The translations under genes and the position numbers were made by a program. Below are positions 28,369 to 35,071 of a stretch of 64,000 nucleotides of DNA, in pieces. The notes beneath the pieces were generated by a model. The model searched no databases. It saw nothing but the letters and a program-made list of their open reading frames with translations, and was not told the DNA's origin. This DNA comes from Halodesulfurarchaeum formicicum (GTDB taxonomy: Archaea; Halobacteriota; Halobacteria; Halobacteriales; Halobacteriaceae): contig NZ_CP016804.1 in NCBI RefSeq assembly GCF_001886955.1, positions 1,364,001 to 1,428,000 of the forward strand, in the 5' to 3' direction. Within the stretch, counting starts at the first letter, position 1, and every line of letters begins with the position of its first letter.

Positions 28369-29244
28369 TCACTCCTCGTTGATGACCTCACTGGCGATGT
28401 TGCGCCCACGAGTCTTCATCGTGACCTCCCGTCGGGTCCGGACCTCCTCCAGGATGTCGAGTTCGATAAGCCGGTCGTAGATCGACTCGACTTCGTCGAC
28501 GTCCATCCCCAGGAAGTCGGGGATTTCGAACGGGGAGACACCAGAATACAGGCCCATGAGGACCCGTTTCTCTGTCTCCGAGAGGTCAACTGCGCCCTGG
28601 CTTTGCTCGACACCACGCTTGAAGAGGGATTCGAGGACGGCCATGGCGTGGGACTCGCCAGCGAAGTAGGTCTGGACGCTGGTCCCCTCCTGGGCGTGTT
28701 CGACCTTGAGGATGGGGCGGGCCGTCCCAGCCACCTGCTGATTGTCCGCCTCCACACTTCCCACGTCGTCCAGATCGATCGGCACAAAGGCTCCGGAGGA
28801 GAGTGCGACGTTGAGTTCGCGGTCGTCATCAGAGACCTTCACCCGTGCCTGCTCGTAGGTGGTATCCTGGACGACCCCACCCTCGACGGCCGGGTGCTTG
28901 ACCTGGACTTGCTCCTGGTCCAACATGGCACCGAAAAGCGAGAACTCGAAGGACTCGGTGTTCGAACCCAGCGAAATGAGCACCACACTCTCGTTCGCGA
29001 GCTGAATACTGACGTAATCCGAGACCTTGGCGACGGTCTGGTTCACGTCGTACCGACCGCTCAGGCTCGTGATCTTCGACAGCGGGAGGGTCCGCTTCCC
29101 GTCGTTGCTGACCAGAATGAGCCGCTTGTTCGAGAGGATGATCCGGCCGGGCGACCAGTCGGCGTCCTTCAACCGTCGGCCGTCTTTGACCGCCTGGAGG
29201 AACTTGCCTTTCGTGTCCTCGATCTTGTACTCGGACTCGCTCAT
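28369..29244 (-). CDS. cheF2: archaeal chemotaxis-archaellum adaptor CheF (second copy)
   Basis: From ATG 29244 the protein has 291 residues and aligns with cheF1 across its length (VKHPAVEGGVVQDTTYEQARVKV, VLMGLYSGVSPFEIPDFLGMDVDEVESIYDRL). In Halobacterium salinarum two CheF proteins and a HEAT-repeat protein (OE2402F, OE2404R, OE2401F) are found together, as here. An in-frame ATG at 29259 is an alternative start. A 24-codon reading frame ends on the ATG (ATGA overlap). Confidence 0.92.
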   Translation of the reverse strand: MSESEYKIEDTKGKFLQAVKDGRRLKDADWSPGRIILSNKRLILVSNDGKRTLPLSKITSLSGRYDVNQTVAKVSDYVSIQLANESVVLISLGSNTESFEFSLFGAMLDQEQVQVKHPAVEGGVVQDTTYEQARVKVSDDDRELNVALSSGAFVPIDLDDVGSVEADNQQVAGTARPILKVEHAQEGTSVQTYFAGESHAMAVLESLFKRGVEQSQGAVDLSETEKRVLMGLYSGVSPFEIPDFLGMDVDEVESIYDRLIELDILEEVRTRREVTMKTRGRNIASEVINEE

Positions 29245-29315
29245 TCCCATCCCCTCCACGGGCGAGAAGCTCCCCGTCGGATCGGCCCCAACCCGGTCGC
29301 CCCCGCCGACATCAT
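29241..29315 (-). CDS. possible 24-residue leader peptide before cheF2
   Basis: ATG ATG at 29315/29312 opens a frame of 24 codons whose TGA overlaps the cheF2 ATG at 29244. The TATA box at 29341-29348 predicts transcription from about 29318, so this ATG would be at or next to the 5' end and could be read leaderlessly. It is short and may be chance. Confidence 0.3.
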   Translation of the reverse strand: MMSAGATGLGPIRRGASRPWRGWE

Positions 29316-29362: not shown

Positions 29363-30595
29363 TCAAAACTCGAAGCCTTCGAGATCGGGCGAGGACTGTT
29401 CGAGTTTCGAGAGTGCCGCAAAGGCGTACTGCCGTACCTCCTCGCTCTCGGTCTCGTCGACCAGCCGTTCGAGTTTCTGGCGCGAGCGGTCACCCCCAAT
29501 TTTCCCAAGCGTAAATGCGGCCTTTCCAACCGCCGCCTCGGTGCCGGTATCCAGCACCTCGAGCAGTTCGGTCTCGACCCGTCTGCCGCCGATCTCGGCC
29601 AGGCTCGTGGTGGCGAACTGCTGGATCAACTGATCATCGGCGTCCAGGACGGACAGGAGCGCATCGATGGCCACCCCATCGCCTTCCTCGGCCACCCGCC
29701 CAAGCATCCACACGGCGTTGCGCCGCTGGTGAAGCTGGGTTCCCTCTTCGATGATCTCGGCGAGGGATTGGACGATGCTCGGATCGCCGCTCGCGCTCAT
29801 TCGATCGACGACGGCCTGTCTGAGTTCGTCGCTCTTCGAGGCGTCGACGTTCGAGAGGATCTCGATCAGCGAGAAGACCGCCGCCCGCCTGACCAGATCG
29901 CTCTCGTCGCCGAGCAGATCCACGAGCGTGTCGATCGGCTCCGTATTGCCAAAGCGCCCGAGCGAGGCAGCCACGGTTCGCCGCATCGCCTCGCTATCGT
30001 CATCGGCCATCGAAAGCAGGCCCTCGAGGGCGGGCCGGTTGCCGAGGTAACCCAGCGCGTCAGCAACGGCTCGCCTGACCGGGAGCGGTTCACCCTGCAG
30101 ATGCTCGACGAGCGCGCCCGCGGCCCCCGGATCTGCGATCCGACCGAGTGCCCGGGCAGCCCTGACCCGCACTCGGGGGTCCGGATCGGAGAGGGACTCC
30201 ACCAGCGGGCCGACAGCGTTCTCGTTCTCCAGCCGGCCGAGGACGTTCGCGGCGGCCAGCCGGAGCTCCGGCGCGTCCGCGGAGAGATCCCGGACGAACG
30301 TCTCGGCTATTTTCCAGTCCGCAGCGTCTTCCGGGACGTCCCGGCCCAGCGCGTGGAGAAGCGCGTCGACGGCGTCAAGCGCCGTTAACGCGTCGATGGC
30401 CGCTGCCCGAACGGCCTCGTTGTCGTCTGCCTGTACGACCTCGACGAGCGCTTCGATGCCGGCTTCGTCAGTCTCGTCGAGACTGCCAAGGATTTCGGCG
30501 GCCCGCTCTCTTACTGTCGGGTTGTCACTCTCGGTGACCACCGCGGTCAGGGTCTCGACGTCCCGATCTCGTTCCAGTCCGAAGAGCGAGGGCAC
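29363..30595 (-). CDS. HEAT-repeat protein of the chemotaxis cluster
   Basis: The 410-residue protein is built of HEAT/PBS-lyase-type repeats of about 31 residues (for example DPDPRVRVRAARALGRIADPGAAGALVEHL). It has no membrane segment or enzyme motif. A homologous protein (OE2401F) binds chemotaxis components in Halobacterium but is not essential for taxis. The start is GTG 30595, with TATATTTG on the plus strand at 30621-30628 giving a leaderless-type spacing of about 30 bp. Confidence 0.87.
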   Translation of the reverse strand: MPSLFGLERDRDVETLTAVVTESDNPTVRERAAEILGSLDETDEAGIEALVEVVQADDNEAVRAAAIDALTALDAVDALLHALGRDVPEDAADWKIAETFVRDLSADAPELRLAAANVLGRLENENAVGPLVESLSDPDPRVRVRAARALGRIADPGAAGALVEHLQGEPLPVRRAVADALGYLGNRPALEGLLSMADDDSEAMRRTVAASLGRFGNTEPIDTLVDLLGDESDLVRRAAVFSLIEILSNVDASKSDELRQAVVDRMSASGDPSIVQSLAEIIEEGTQLHQRRNAVWMLGRVAEEGDGVAIDALLSVLDADDQLIQQFATTSLAEIGGRRVETELLEVLDTGTEAAVGKAAFTLGKIGGDRSRQKLERLVDETESEEVRQYAFAALSKLEQSSPDLEGFEF

Positions 30596-30620
30596 TGACC
30601 AGGAGTACCAGCGGCAGGGG

Positions 30621-30628
30621 TATATTTG
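30621..30628 (-). promoter_or_regulatory. TATA box of the HEAT-repeat gene
   Basis: Minus-strand CAAATATA lies about 30 bp before GTG 30595. Confidence 0.5.
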
Positions 30629-30660
30629 TACTCATCCCGGCCCCCAAATCCGGTGGGTGA

Positions 30661-31293
30661 CTACCGGAGCGAGACGGCAGATCTGGTCCGAATCCGCTCG
30701 GGAACCCGGATCTCGATCCGCTTGGTGGCCCCCGATTCGAGCTGGAGCCGGACCGCAAACCGGTCGTGAACTGAAAGCGGTGGCGTCTCGATCACCACCG
30801 CGAACTGATCCGCAGTTTCGGTGACGACGGGGGCCGAGCCGTCCGGATCTGAAAGTGCCTCGACAGAAAATGTCTCGCCCGCAGTCGGTGTGTCGGCACT
30901 GTACTCGAGGTCGTCGATCGCGCCTGGAGTTTCGACGAGCGCCGTGGCCTGTCGCAAGTCCACCGAAACGGGCGCTTGTGAGGTCGAGACGATTACCCGA
31001 ACGTCGGTCAGCGTACTGGGGTCGGCGGTCTGATTCACGCGGCCGGTCACCGCGACGACCGTGAGCGGCGAGTCGACTTCTGACGTGACGGCCTCGCCCG
31101 TGATATCAGCCCTGGATTGAAGCACGTCAGTGACGTTGAACAGAACACCGGCCGTCGTCGCGGCGACGATCAGGACGGCCACGAGAATGACGATCGTTCC
31201 GGCCCCGATCTGGGCCCGGGTGGGTCCAAACTCGGACCCACTGCCCTCTTGACTCCGCTTGTGGCGGTCCACGTGCCGCCGTCGTCCCGCCAT
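30661..31293 (-). CDS. divergent archaellin-like protein
   Basis: From ATG 31293 the product has 210 residues. A basic leader of about 27 residues ends before RAQIGAGTIVILVAVLIVAATTAGVLFNVT, matching the prepilin-peptidase site and N-terminal helix of archaellins (compare [11 protein letters not shown] in the major ones). The C-terminal domain ends in EIRVPERIRTRSAVSL, also like the archaellins, but the middle is shorter and diverged. It may be a minor filament component or cap. The start overlaps no gene but follows the upstream stop by 1 base (TGATATG). Confidence 0.82.
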   Translation of the reverse strand: MAGRRRHVDRHKRSQEGSGSEFGPTRAQIGAGTIVILVAVLIVAATTAGVLFNVTDVLQSRADITGEAVTSEVDSPLTVVAVTGRVNQTADPSTLTDVRVIVSTSQAPVSVDLRQATALVETPGAIDDLEYSADTPTAGETFSVEALSDPDGSAPVVTETADQFAVVIETPPLSVHDRFAVRLQLESGATKRIEIRVPERIRTRSAVSLR

Positions 31294-31294
31294 A

Positions 31295-31843
31295 TCAGGA
31301 CTGGACCATTCGATAGCCCAACCCGACGAGGGAGAGAATGGCACCGAGGAAGGCGACTAATGCGAGTTCGGTGCGATCGATGGGGCCGCCAAGTTCGGCG
31401 GGATGAGATTCGAGCACCTCGATCGTGTGCACCTCGGAGACGTCGGCGGGCTGGCGGGTTTCGGCGTCGAGAACCGAGAACCGGAGGCCGTGTGTGCCGA
31501 CCGTGCTGGCGTTGATCGCCCGCGAGACACTGGCTTGCTCGCCGGGATCGATCGTGATCGTCTCGACCTCGTAGGCCTCCGTCTCGTTTTCCGGGCTGGC
31601 GGTGTGGAGGACGACCGTCCCACTCGTGACGGTCTCGCCCGTGTTTCGGACCGTCACGGTGAACTCGCCCTGTTCACCGAGGACGAGTGACTCCTCGCTC
31701 AACTCGACGGCCTCGATGCAGAGCGAGCGATCCTCGATGGGGTCACAGTCCGCCTGGGCGTTCGCGCCGGTGGGCAGCAGTGGTCCCGAGGCTGCGAGCC
31801 CGAGGAAGATGACGCCGATCAGGAGCACGCGTGTCGTGTTCAT
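31295..31843 (-). CDS. secreted CARDB-like protein with C-terminal membrane anchor
   Basis: The 182-residue protein has an N-terminal signal peptide (VLLIGVIFLGLAASGPLLPTGANA), a beta-sandwich domain of CARDB type (LGEQGEFTVTVRNTGETVTSGTVVLHTA) and a C-terminal membrane helix (LALVAFLGAILSLVGLGYRMV). The domain therefore faces outward. It is cotranscribed with the divergent archaellin gene, one base upstream. Function is unknown; an anchoring or stator-accessory role is a guess from context. Confidence 0.75.
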   Translation of the reverse strand: MNTTRVLLIGVIFLGLAASGPLLPTGANAQADCDPIEDRSLCIEAVELSEESLVLGEQGEFTVTVRNTGETVTSGTVVLHTASPENETEAYEVETITIDPGEQASVSRAINASTVGTHGLRFSVLDAETRQPADVSEVHTIEVLESHPAELGGPIDRTELALVAFLGAILSLVGLGYRMVQS

Positions 31844-31895: not shown

Positions 31896-32906
31896 TTACA
31901 GGCTCACGGCTTCCTGATTCGCCAGCGAGTCGGGGACCCGGATCTCGAGGGACTTCGTCGCACCCGAGGGGGTCGTAATCGAGACTTCCGTACTCGTGCC
32001 GGCATCGAGGTAGCCCGGATCGATGTGCATCGTGAAGCGGTCGCCGGAGGTCAGCACGGGCACGGTGTTGTCGTCGTCCTGAACGGCCGAGAGAGTGAAG
32101 CTCGTGTCCTCCTCCGGCACGGCGTTGTTGTTCAGGCCTTCGTAGGTCAGGTCGTGACTGCCGTCGGGGGCGACGAGCGAGATGGTCGTGCCCTTCATGT
32201 CGATGTCACTGGCACCGGGGGCCTGGGTGACGATCATCTCGACCTTGTTCACCCGCGGGGTCACGCCGTCATCGTTGGCCGTGATCTCGAAGGATTCGGT
32301 GGCGGTGAGATTCGCCGTGTAGTCCGTGTCGTCGTCGGTGATCGTTACCGAGGTATCGCCATCCGCGGTCAGGTTGGAACTCGCGTTGAAGGTGAACGTA
32401 TTCGGTTCGTTCGCCGCTTCGCGGTCCCAGTACTGGAGGGTGTACTCGTCGTGCCCCTCGTCGTTGACCTCGACACTCGTCACGGTGACTTCGTGGGTGG
32501 TGTTGTATTCGCCGAGTTCGAGTGCGTTGTCTGGGCTACCCACCTCCTGAAGGGAGGCGGTATCACCGTCATTGACGGTCGAATTAGTCACGTTGACCTG
32601 TAGTACCTCACTCTCCCGGATGTCGAAGTTCTGACCACTGTCGTTTTCCACGTTCAGTTCCGCGGAGGAGACCAACCCAGTCGTACTCACGATTTGCAGC
32701 TGGTTCGTGACCTGCTGGGTGCTCTCTTCGCCGGTCTGTTCGGCCGAACTCTGGAGGAAGCCGGCCGTGTTGATCAGTACGCCCGCCGCGATAGCCGCGA
32801 CGAGGACCATCGCGATGAACACGATCAGGGTACCGATACCCACCTGGCCGTGCTCTCCCGATTTCGGGAGCCGTTCTTTGATCGATCCGAGTGTGTCGCG
32901 TATCAT
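31896..32906 (-). CDS. arlA2: archaellin (second copy)
   Basis: The 336-residue protein starts [12 protein letters not shown], with the prepilin-peptidase site [13 protein letters not shown] and the hydrophobic polymerisation helix. The outer domain is rich in Asp and contains several NxT/NxS sequons, suggesting N-glycosylation. The C-terminus ([16 protein letters not shown]) is identical to that of the first archaellin. A start at 32918 would add MRDT; the paralog supports 32906. A palindrome, TATA box and leader hairpin precede it. Confidence 0.94.
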
Positions 32907-32915
32907 AGTATCTCG

Positions 32916-32936
32916 CAAGCACCGGTCGGGTGCCTG
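32916..32936 (-). promoter_or_regulatory. leader hairpin of the second archaellin gene
   Basis: Minus-strand CAGGCACC-CGACC-GGTGCTTG forms an 8-bp stem with a 5-nt loop, 9 bp before the start codon. The stem is identical to that at 34089-34109 while the loop differs. Confidence 0.6.
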
Positions 32937-32961
32937 CCTACCACCCCGTTCAGCAAATTAC

Positions 32962-32998
32962 TATAAGAAAGTACGGTCGCTATTATCGGCTGCGATAA
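32962..32998 (-). promoter_or_regulatory. promoter and palindromic operator of the second archaellin gene
   Basis: The TATA element (plus-strand TATAAG at 32962-32967) is 15 bp from a perfect palindrome TTATCG-GCTG-CGATAA at 32983-32998. The same distance and palindrome arms recur at 34136-34172. Confidence 0.65.
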
Positions 32999-33031
32999 CA
33001 CAGGCGAGCCACGGCGTTCGTGGGCCGGCGA

Positions 33032-33050
33032 AGAAAAAAATCGAAACGGC
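33032..33050 (-). terminator. oligo-T terminator after the first archaellin gene
   Basis: The minus strand has a run of seven T within CGATTTTTTTCTTC about 20 bp after the archaellin stop codon, the usual form of haloarchaeal terminators. Confidence 0.5.
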
Positions 33051-33059
33051 GTCCGAAAG

Positions 33060-34079
33060 TTAGAGACTCACGGCTTCCTGGTTGGCCAGCGAGTCAGGGA
33101 CACGGATCTCCATGGACTTCGTCGCGCCCGAGGGCGTCGTAATCGAGACTTCCGAGCTCGTGCCAGCGGCCAGGGTGCCAGGATCGACGTGGATCGTGAA
33201 GCGGTCGCCGGAAGTCAGGACTGGGACGGTGTTGTCGTCGTCCTGAATCGCCGAGAGGGTGAAGCTGGTGTCCTCGACAGGATCGGTTTCACCTGGAGGC
33301 CCTCGGTAGACGAGGTCGTGACTGCCATCAGGGGCGACCATGCTGATCGTGGTGCCCTTCATGTCGATGTCGTTCGCACCGGGTGCCTGGGTCACGATCA
33401 TCTCGATGTCCGAGACCAGCGGCGTGACCCCTTCGTCGGAGCCCGAGACTGTCGCGTTGGTGTTGTTGATCTCGACAGTCGTGCCGTCAAGGGTCAGTTC
33501 GGCGAATACCTCGGAATCATCTACGTAGCCTTCGTAGGTCAGATTCTTGCTGGCGTTGAACGTCGCTTCCCGCGGCTGGTCGAACTCCTCGGGGTTCCAG
33601 TACTGGAGCGTGTAGGTGTCAGCCCCGTCGTCGTTCAGCGTGACGTCCGAAACTTTCACCGTGTGTGTCTGGTTCAAATCACCGAGCTGGAGGGTCGCAT
33701 CACCGTCCTCCTCGGTCAAATTCGCGGAGCTCTCTCCCAGCGAGTTGTTGCCATCGGTTACGTTAGCTTCGAAGGTCAAGTCCTCGTGGACATTGAATTC
33801 CGCGTTCGAACTCTCGTTCTCGATCGTCAGCTCCGTCGCCGCGACCTCCCCAGTCGTACTCACGATCTGGAGCTGGTTCGTGACCTGTTCGGTGCTCTCC
33901 TCGCCTGTCTGTTCGGCCGAACTCTGCAGGAAGCCGGCCGTGTTGATCAACACGCCTGCCGCGATGGCCGCGACCAGCACCATCGCGATGAACACGATCA
34001 GGGTACCGATACCAACCTGACCGTGTTCTCCCGAGTCGGGGAGACGTTCCTTGATCGATCCGAGTGTGTTGCGTATCAT
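33060..34079 (-). CDS. arlA1: archaellin (first copy)
   Basis: The 339-residue protein starts [14 protein letters not shown] and carries the processing site [13 protein letters not shown], the polymerisation helix, and an outer domain with many N-glycosylation sequons ([31 protein letters not shown]). N- and C-termini are almost identical to the second archaellin whereas the middle differs, as expected for exposed filament surface. It has its own promoter, palindrome and leader hairpin, and a T-rich terminator. Confidence 0.95.
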
Positions 34080-34225: not shown

Positions 34226-35071
34226 ATGACCGAACGACGCGTCGACTGGATGATTCTGGGGCTCGACGTGGCGGGGTTGCTGGTCGTGCCGGTCGTGGTG
34301 TCGCTCCTTCATTTCACGGCAACTGAGTCGTTCCTTGCGAGCCTGACCCACTACGCCGACGCCACCACACTCCAGGGCCTGTTCGGTCACTGGGCGGTCC
34401 ACCACTCGACAGCGCACCTGGTGGGAAACGTGATGGGCTACGGGCTCGTAGCCGGGGCGGCCTACGGGCTCGCGTGGCTCGTCAAGGAGCGATGGTGGTT
34501 CCGACTCTCCGGGCTCACGATCCTGGTAGTCGTGCCGCCGAGCACTGCGCTCGCCAGCGATCTGGTATTCGGCTGGCTTCTTCCGGGTTTCAGCTATGCC
34601 GCTCGCGGCGCGTCAGCGGTCGTCGCAGCCATGCTGGGACTGCTCTACGTGCTCTTTCTGGGTTTTCTCCAGCGGGAATTCGACCGCCGTGTCGCTATCA
34701 GTGTCGGCGGCAACGTCCTGATCGGCACGCTGGTGGGGCTGCTCTGGGTGGTCGGCGACCCGCCCTGGACGACCGTTATCGGGATCCTTGGCGCCGGCGT
34801 CGCGGTCCTGCTTTTCGACGTGGGCAGTCGGATCCGTAGCGATCAGGAACGCCAGCGCCCAGCCGGCCGGATACATCGAGTTGAAGCAAGCCTACTCCTC
34901 ACGACAGCGGTCTTTACCGTCCTGCTCGCGAGTGCAATTGCCCTCGTTCCGGCAAACCCGTTTGCCGGCCCCGCGATCAGCAACGTCTACGCACACGCGA
35001 CTGGGTTTGGAATGGGGATCACGGTCGGGGGCTGGGGCCACCGGTACTGGACGGCACGTTCTTGGTTTTGA
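34226..35071 (+). CDS. rhomboid-like intramembrane protein
   Basis: The 281-residue protein has six or seven hydrophobic segments. A rhomboid-type HLVGNVMGYG follows the first loop, the candidate serine lies in ARGASAVVAAML, and a late His is in YAHATGFGMG. The usual GxSG is here GASA, so the residue after Ser is Ala instead of Gly; activity is uncertain. It is divergent from the archaellin gene and upstream of arlD. An accessory role in archaellum or surface-protein processing is only suggested by location. Confidence 0.7.
   Translation: MTERRVDWMILGLDVAGLLVVPVVVSLLHFTATESFLASLTHYADATTLQGLFGHWAVHHSTAHLVGNVMGYGLVAGAAYGLAWLVKERWWFRLSGLTILVVVPPSTALASDLVFGWLLPGFSYAARGASAVVAAMLGLLYVLFLGFLQREFDRRVAISVGGNVLIGTLVGLLWVVGDPPWTTVIGILGAGVAVLLFDVGSRIRSDQERQRPAGRIHRVEASLLLTTAVFTVLLASAIALVPANPFAGPAISNVYAHATGFGMGITVGGWGHRYWTARSWF

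Follow-up and report, generated by a model that had tools for sequence, protein, structure and literature searches.

In M. voltae, M. maripaludis and H. salinarum, minor archaellins are described as building a basal, hook-like region; the same source, PMC8821640, calls both the start of the archaellum filament at the membrane and the role of the minor archaellins unresolved. The H. salinarum filament is described in PMC11239922 by a 45-residue helix and an eight-stranded beta-sandwich. Here, a 64,000-nucleotide stretch (the window) of a haloarchaeal genome of 2,085,946 bases was analysed for two adjoining genes, one for a divergent archaellin and one for a membrane-anchored ectodomain protein (the partner). 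No paper containing both 'archaellin' and 'CARDB', the domain first proposed for the partner, was found in the open-licence PMC literature, and no title or abstract opening describing such a pair was found among the papers listed in related searches. That the two genes stay close together even in distant relatives suggests a hitherto undescribed accessory component of the archaellum, with which archaea swim.

Gene order of the locus

Both open reading frames were read directly in the window and are intact on the minus strand, at the positions given in the first-pass annotation (Table 1). Along this strand giant archaellin 2 and giant archaellin 1 are followed by 52 bp, the partner, 1 nt, the divergent archaellin, 65 bp, the HEAT-repeat gene and the CheF-type gene. 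The coupling described earlier was recovered: in the junction TGATATG the stop codon of the partner and the archaellin ATG are separated by a 1-nt spacer, which is identical in the sister genome G002 and suggests that the two proteins may be expressed in a fixed ratio. Since ArlF, ArlG, ArlH, ArlI and ArlJ are each encoded separately in the window, at about 7.9-13.2 kb, the pair is an addition to the standard archaellum set, as its description as a two-gene unit outside the standard archaellum genes had implied.

In the 65-bp gap (30596-30660) the TATA-like ACAAATATA was found ahead of the HEAT gene; it suggests that this gene probably has a TATA-like promoter of its own and that the pair may thus end the archaellin transcript. 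A homologue of the HEAT gene is present in 17 of 26 family genomes, and the slot adjoining it is often filled by an ordinary archaellin in the family. The divergent archaellin was considered as a leftover of the last ordinary archaellin at this slot and the idea was rejected, because the protein groups with Halorussus relatives and not with the slot archaellins; the position itself may be inherited.

The giant archaellins (31896-34079) are similar to filament proteins of 454-463 aa whose structures have been solved (9v95, 9v96 and 9xtb). In the rhomboid-like protein, for which a Pfam search of 34226-35071 gave no match, catalytic-type HxxxN, GxS and H motifs were read by eye, with GFSG in the Halorussus homologue (L181:6615-8258). 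In G185 and G135, too, a homologue adjoins the giant archaellin. A link of this gene to the membrane helix of the partner was considered and is noted only as a possibility, as no homologue was called in the fetched loci of G250, G515, G516, G279 and G413.

Table 1. Features at and around the gene pair, in window coordinates.
Feature	Position	Strand	Properties
Divergent archaellin-family protein	30661..31293	-	210 aa; ATG at 31293; PF01917 63 bits
Divergent archaellin, alternative start	in-frame GTG upstream of ATG 31293	-	would make 227 aa
Membrane-anchored Ig-like ectodomain protein (partner)	31295..31843	-	182 aa; Sec-type signal; C33/C42; sequon N86-x-T88; Ig-like domain about 41-144; LGGPID motif; C-terminal membrane helix
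Giant archaellin 1	31896..32918	-	340 aa; 52 bp upstream of pair, same strand; PF01917 114 bits
Giant archaellin 2	33060..34079	-	339 aa; PF01917 120 bits
HEAT-repeat protein	29363..30595	-	downstream of pair; HEAT_2 179.6 bits
CheF-type taxis protein	28369..29259	-	PF04283 230 bits
Rhomboid-like membrane protein	34226..35071	+	divergently oriented from archaellins; similarity 37-48 bits

An archaellin with an altered helix and its anchored partner

The divergent archaellin matched PF01917 with an E value of 5.4e-17 and 63.0 bits (gathering score 29.5), residues 27-194 being aligned to positions 1-161 of the 162-position profile; its counterparts in G185 and G250 scored 78 and 67 bits. The class III signal noted in the first reading was recognised as a predicted cleavage site, RA|Q, at residue 27 and a single long hydrophobic helix (24-58), and the N-terminal model TIGR02537 reached 14.2 against a cut-off of 20. 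Two other early impressions were not confirmed. The protein had been called shorter than an archaellin, and it seems so only next to the two giants; archaellins in relatives are commonly about 190-200 aa long, so that 210 aa is normal. It had also been said to lack resemblance in the middle, and here the whole beta-sandwich was recovered, matching 9eq7 of the Halobacterium salinarum filament at Z 16.9 and rmsd 2.0 over 126 aligned residues. This is the eight-stranded archaellin beta-domain, which other archaellins match at Z 11-15. In the underlying model (mean pLDDT 64.5) the blocks of the beta-domain mostly lie at 65-91 and the N-terminal helix below 50. The divergent archaellin is a full-length, untruncated member of the archaellin family.

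The same fold search returned Sulfolobus FlaF (Z 12.2) and FlaG (Z 10.0), and ArlF and ArlG are themselves derived from archaellin duplication in the account given in part of PMC8667602. A third duplicate of this kind, residing in the pseudoperiplasm as a stator accessory and not in the filament, is nevertheless very unlikely: the best fold match is the filament archaellin, the ArlG model NF052591 gave 19.4 bits against a cut-off of 110 (27.2 and 26.5 bits for G185 and G250), and no ArlF match to NF052590 (cut-off 110 bits) was obtained up to E 1. Moreover, the long helix is kept in the divergent archaellin whereas those of ArlF and ArlG are 15-20 residues shorter, again according to the available part of PMC8667602, and standard ArlF and ArlG are present in the window. 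Of the base, cap or stator accessory suggested in the first-pass annotation, stator membership fell below the cut-offs; a special, probably cell-proximal place is favoured by the altered helix and the anchored partner.

For the comparison of helices, a motif filter was applied to the fetched loci and yielded 87 ordinary archaellins. It excluded one ArlG and five rows that look canonical but have an HG|Q site; two of the HG|Q rows, those of the window, were restored for the helix count. The 32-residue haloarchaeal consensus is matched exactly by 77 of the 87, and the worst differs at seven positions. In the seven divergent archaellins 17, 17, 13, 17, 17, 13 and 14 mismatches were counted. With 17 of 32 positions changed, the protein of the window does not carry the nearly invariant helix of a bulk filament archaellin. 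Positions 14, 27, 28 and 30 depart from the consensus in all seven, and the helix varies also among the lineages of divergent archaellins. The altered N-terminal helix, the part by which archaellins pack in the filament core, is the distinguishing feature of the divergent archaellin.

In the partner, both hydrophobic segments claimed earlier were found: an N-terminal signal and a C-terminal helix followed by YR, between which lie two cysteines and an Ig-like domain. The basic residues after the C-terminal helix predict that the domain is placed outside. In an alignment of 17 partner rows, C33, C42, N67, G69, P100, G101, G116, H118, L151 and G153 are invariant, the two cysteines among them; 16 of the rows have the sequon at 86-88, and an LGG motif precedes the helix in all except G332. 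A stringent hydrophobicity cut-off detected the helix in 13 of the 17 rows; in the other four the corresponding segment is less hydrophobic. The AlphaFold model places strands at 41-144 and a helix at 154-181. A fold search returned 491 of 997 chains at Z at least 8, the best at 12.0 over 103 residues, so that the whole domain is Ig-like; because the top matches (Z 10.7-12) are many and unrelated Ig-like domains, the fold tells nothing of the function. The CARDB identity proposed at first proved weak, since PF07705 gave 16.5 bits against a cut-off of 22.7 (13.7 bits for the G185 homologue).

Distribution, co-occurrence and origin

A profile of the partner family identified 17 members in 392 genomes drawn from the order (E 9.5e-49 or better, the next at 3.4e-13); the matches below the threshold are nearly all pieces of large open frames. 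Family-wise searches (f17, 2 of 28 genomes; f4, 4 of 146; f5, 19 of 170) added ten genomes to give 27 in total. No full-length homologue was detected in the g4 genomes, which belong to the same family as the window. The base of the partner family tree is unresolved, with the partners of G332 and G518 forming a distant pair. Archaellum specificity of the partner was not supported, as most other family members lie away from archaellum genes: 10 of the 27 stand beside some archaellin, 11 beside USP-like genes and 2 (G332 and G518) elsewhere, the remaining 4 being outside this count. In G279, G413 and G261 the partner lies in an archaellum locus without a divergent archaellin, the first two also having giant archaellins. 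In f5 genomes (L072, L074, L076 and similar) its neighbour is a universal-stress-protein-like gene, in many cases together with a large ATPase-like gene, a setting that suggests another role of the family there.

The divergent archaellin was detected in five of the 392 genomes (271-327 bits, the next at 158), and the partner is present in all five. This score gap was dropped as proof because the five best rows were the sequences that had built the profile. A fairer check was provided by G515 and G516, which were held out of both profiles and carry the two genes side by side; at 206 and 184 bits, their archaellins outscored the best of the others (162 bits). Among the later-added genomes the search for the divergent archaellin covered f5 (170), and the added partner-negative f4 genomes were left out. 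In f5 it was found above the ordinary archaellins in three genomes. All 12 f5 genomes with a match at E 1e-42 or better have the partner, an overlap that mainly reflects kinship, since nine of them rest on ordinary archaellins only. The genes of the relatives were called with a codon-composition script, which may miss genes.

Altogether, the divergent archaellin occurs in seven genomes of three families, with the partner within 2.2 kb in each, and the co-occurrence on which the first-pass annotation depended was thus found. Under random spread, the chance that five given genomes of 392 all fall among the 17 partner carriers is 8e-8; this value is too small because the carriers are related and the real number of lineages is three. 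Three ARRANGEMENTS of the pair are known across the seven genomes. In G000 and G002 the archaellins are followed by the coupled partner and divergent archaellin at 1-nt spacing. In G185 and G135 the rhomboid-like gene, a giant archaellin, the partner, a type I surface protein of 561-566 aa and the divergent archaellin follow each other on one strand, the partner and the archaellin being about 2.15 kb apart. In G250, G515 and G516 the two genes stand back to back (separated by 254 bp in G250, 270 bp in G516 and no more than 121 bp in G515), a 625-aa membrane protein or its homologue comes after the partner, and the main giant archaellins are elsewhere. The giant archaellins of G000, G002, G185, G135, G250 and G279 cluster in the tree (9 rows, 88/94), and the pair therefore goes with giant archaellins.

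Several further features were observed around these loci. The 561-566-aa protein (L181:10613-12295; L094:8443-10140) is secreted and has a Thr-rich stalk; other large type I surface proteins adjoin archaellins in G006 and G012 (L028:2954-4492; L027:4068-5576), and one beside archaellins in G250 (L117:6327-8138) is weakly similar (35-39 bits). The g59 genomes G262, G268, G209, G357, G233, G163 and G453-G456 contain 5-8 ordinary archaellin matches over the chromosome, several of them single genes. Between giant archaellin and partner of G279 (L091:6269-8032) two toxin-antitoxin-like pairs were recognised by eye, one PIN-type and one nucleotidyltransferase/HEPN-type, and G413 retains a called remnant of the latter only. 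A phage search gave no match, and the search of genome contigs with the window archaellin gave no relative.

The back-to-back arrangement, in which the two genes are at a distance from the main archaellin genes, would suit a short filament of its own kind. This would be a pilus or adhesin of archaellin type, built by archaellum or pilus machinery with the anchored protein as base or display partner. G185 and G135 also possess other ordinary archaellins elsewhere, and an altered helix that packs poorly with bulk archaellins may still pack with itself. However, no ATPase or platform gene of its own was seen beside the pair, which adjoins a giant archaellin in G000, G002, G185 and G135, and the helix differs between lineages too; we consider a separate filament distinctly unlikely. 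It is unlikely as well, if a little less so, that the protein is a fast-evolving minor archaellin mixed at low amount into the ordinary filament, with the Ig-like protein as a generic envelope neighbour. In its favour, a single Halorubrum filament is known to contain several divergent archaellins (PMC7349177), ordinary archaellins are often scattered and multiplied, and the partner family is often distant from archaellum genes. This reading does not fit well with a proximity kept in seven of seven genomes and three arrangements, two of these genomes having been held out of the profiles, nor with the near-invariance of the helix in the 87 ordinary archaellins.

Decay of an isolated duplicate, raised as a possibility at the outset, was rejected: the frame of the divergent archaellin is open in 7/7 genomes, and between G000 and G002 its dN/dS is 0.29, near that of archaellin 1 (0.26), with 0.19 for the partner, indicating purifying selection.

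In trees of whole mature proteins the first five divergent archaellins fall on one side of a branch with 97/98 support (94 rows), and all seven group with 95/95 in a thinned set of 55 of these rows. The tree of the beta-domain alone did not unite the seven (a single clade appears in 2% of bootstrap trees), though such a clade was not rejected (p-AU 0.706). Profiles with the own genus left out scored higher for the group than for ordinary archaellins with the protein of the window (128.0 vs 104.7) and G135 (152.3 vs 124.6), slightly lower with G185 (129.4 vs 140.2) and clearly lower with the g80 members (e.g. 102.5 vs 140.1); 66, 21 and 55 of the 87 ordinary archaellins outscore left-out divergent members. 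From these comparisons, the link between the divergent archaellins of the window and of Halorussus appears good, a single origin of all seven is unsure, and the g80 archaellins may represent a second, parallel helix change beside the same partner. Under common origin or parallel change, the helix change is tied to the partner in each case.

Proposed role and relation to known systems

Our preferred reading, held tentatively and at somewhat less than even confidence, is that the pair consists of a specialised, probably cell-proximal archaellum subunit and its membrane-anchored ectodomain partner. The divergent archaellin would be a specialised minor archaellin, processed by the archaellin peptidase and passed to ArlI/ArlJ. 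As its helix departs from the one that hardly varies among bulk subunits, it would sit where the packing differs, most likely at the cell-proximal end, where the filament leaves the membrane. The partner would be kept in the membrane by its C-terminal helix, with a predicted disulphide-stapled and N-glycosylated Ig-like domain in the pseudoperiplasm that would touch the first filament segment and act as its collar or bushing, or help in assembly. Among base, tip and separate filament we infer the base. It is preferred to the tip since the partner is held in the membrane, as are the other recurrent neighbours, the type I protein of G185/G135 and, in G250, G515 and G516, the 625-aa membrane protein or its homologues; such proteins suit the cell surface more than the far end of a filament. 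More doubtful is the wider proposal of a third archaellin-fold class beside ArlB and ArlF/ArlG. It would be a coupler close to the cell, with a helix packing of its own and a dedicated, anchored, putatively glycosylated Ig-like holder, found chiefly in organisms with giant archaellins and passed as a cassette between haloarchaeal families. The helix-altered archaellin and its anchored ectodomain offer an entry point to the start of the filament at the membrane, and the fixed proximity names the partner gene as a candidate interactor of the divergent archaellin.

The hook archaellin ArlB3/FlaB3 of methanogens is likewise a divergent paralogue in an archaellin cluster that forms its own group across species and for which a basal or terminal segment has been proposed; a dedicated membrane-anchored partner goes unmentioned in the available part of PMC8821640, and the likeness is drawn from published descriptions. 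The H. salinarum archaellins (9eq7) share the beta-sandwich and, at about 190-210 aa, the size, but not the altered helix. Halorubrum FlaB1/FlaB2 are also strongly diverged archaellins in one organism, and proteins of these types range in length between 187 and 481 aa in different genera; there, however, the N-terminal region is the more conserved part, as far as the available part of PMC7349177 goes, whereas here the helix is changed. With ArlF/ArlG the divergent archaellin has the archaellin-derived fold in common, yet it scores below both equivalog cut-offs and keeps the long helix. CARDB and bacterial Ig-like domains (PF07705) are like the partner in their beta-sandwich (Z about 12), whereas the partner scores below the CARDB cut-off and has invariant residues of its own.
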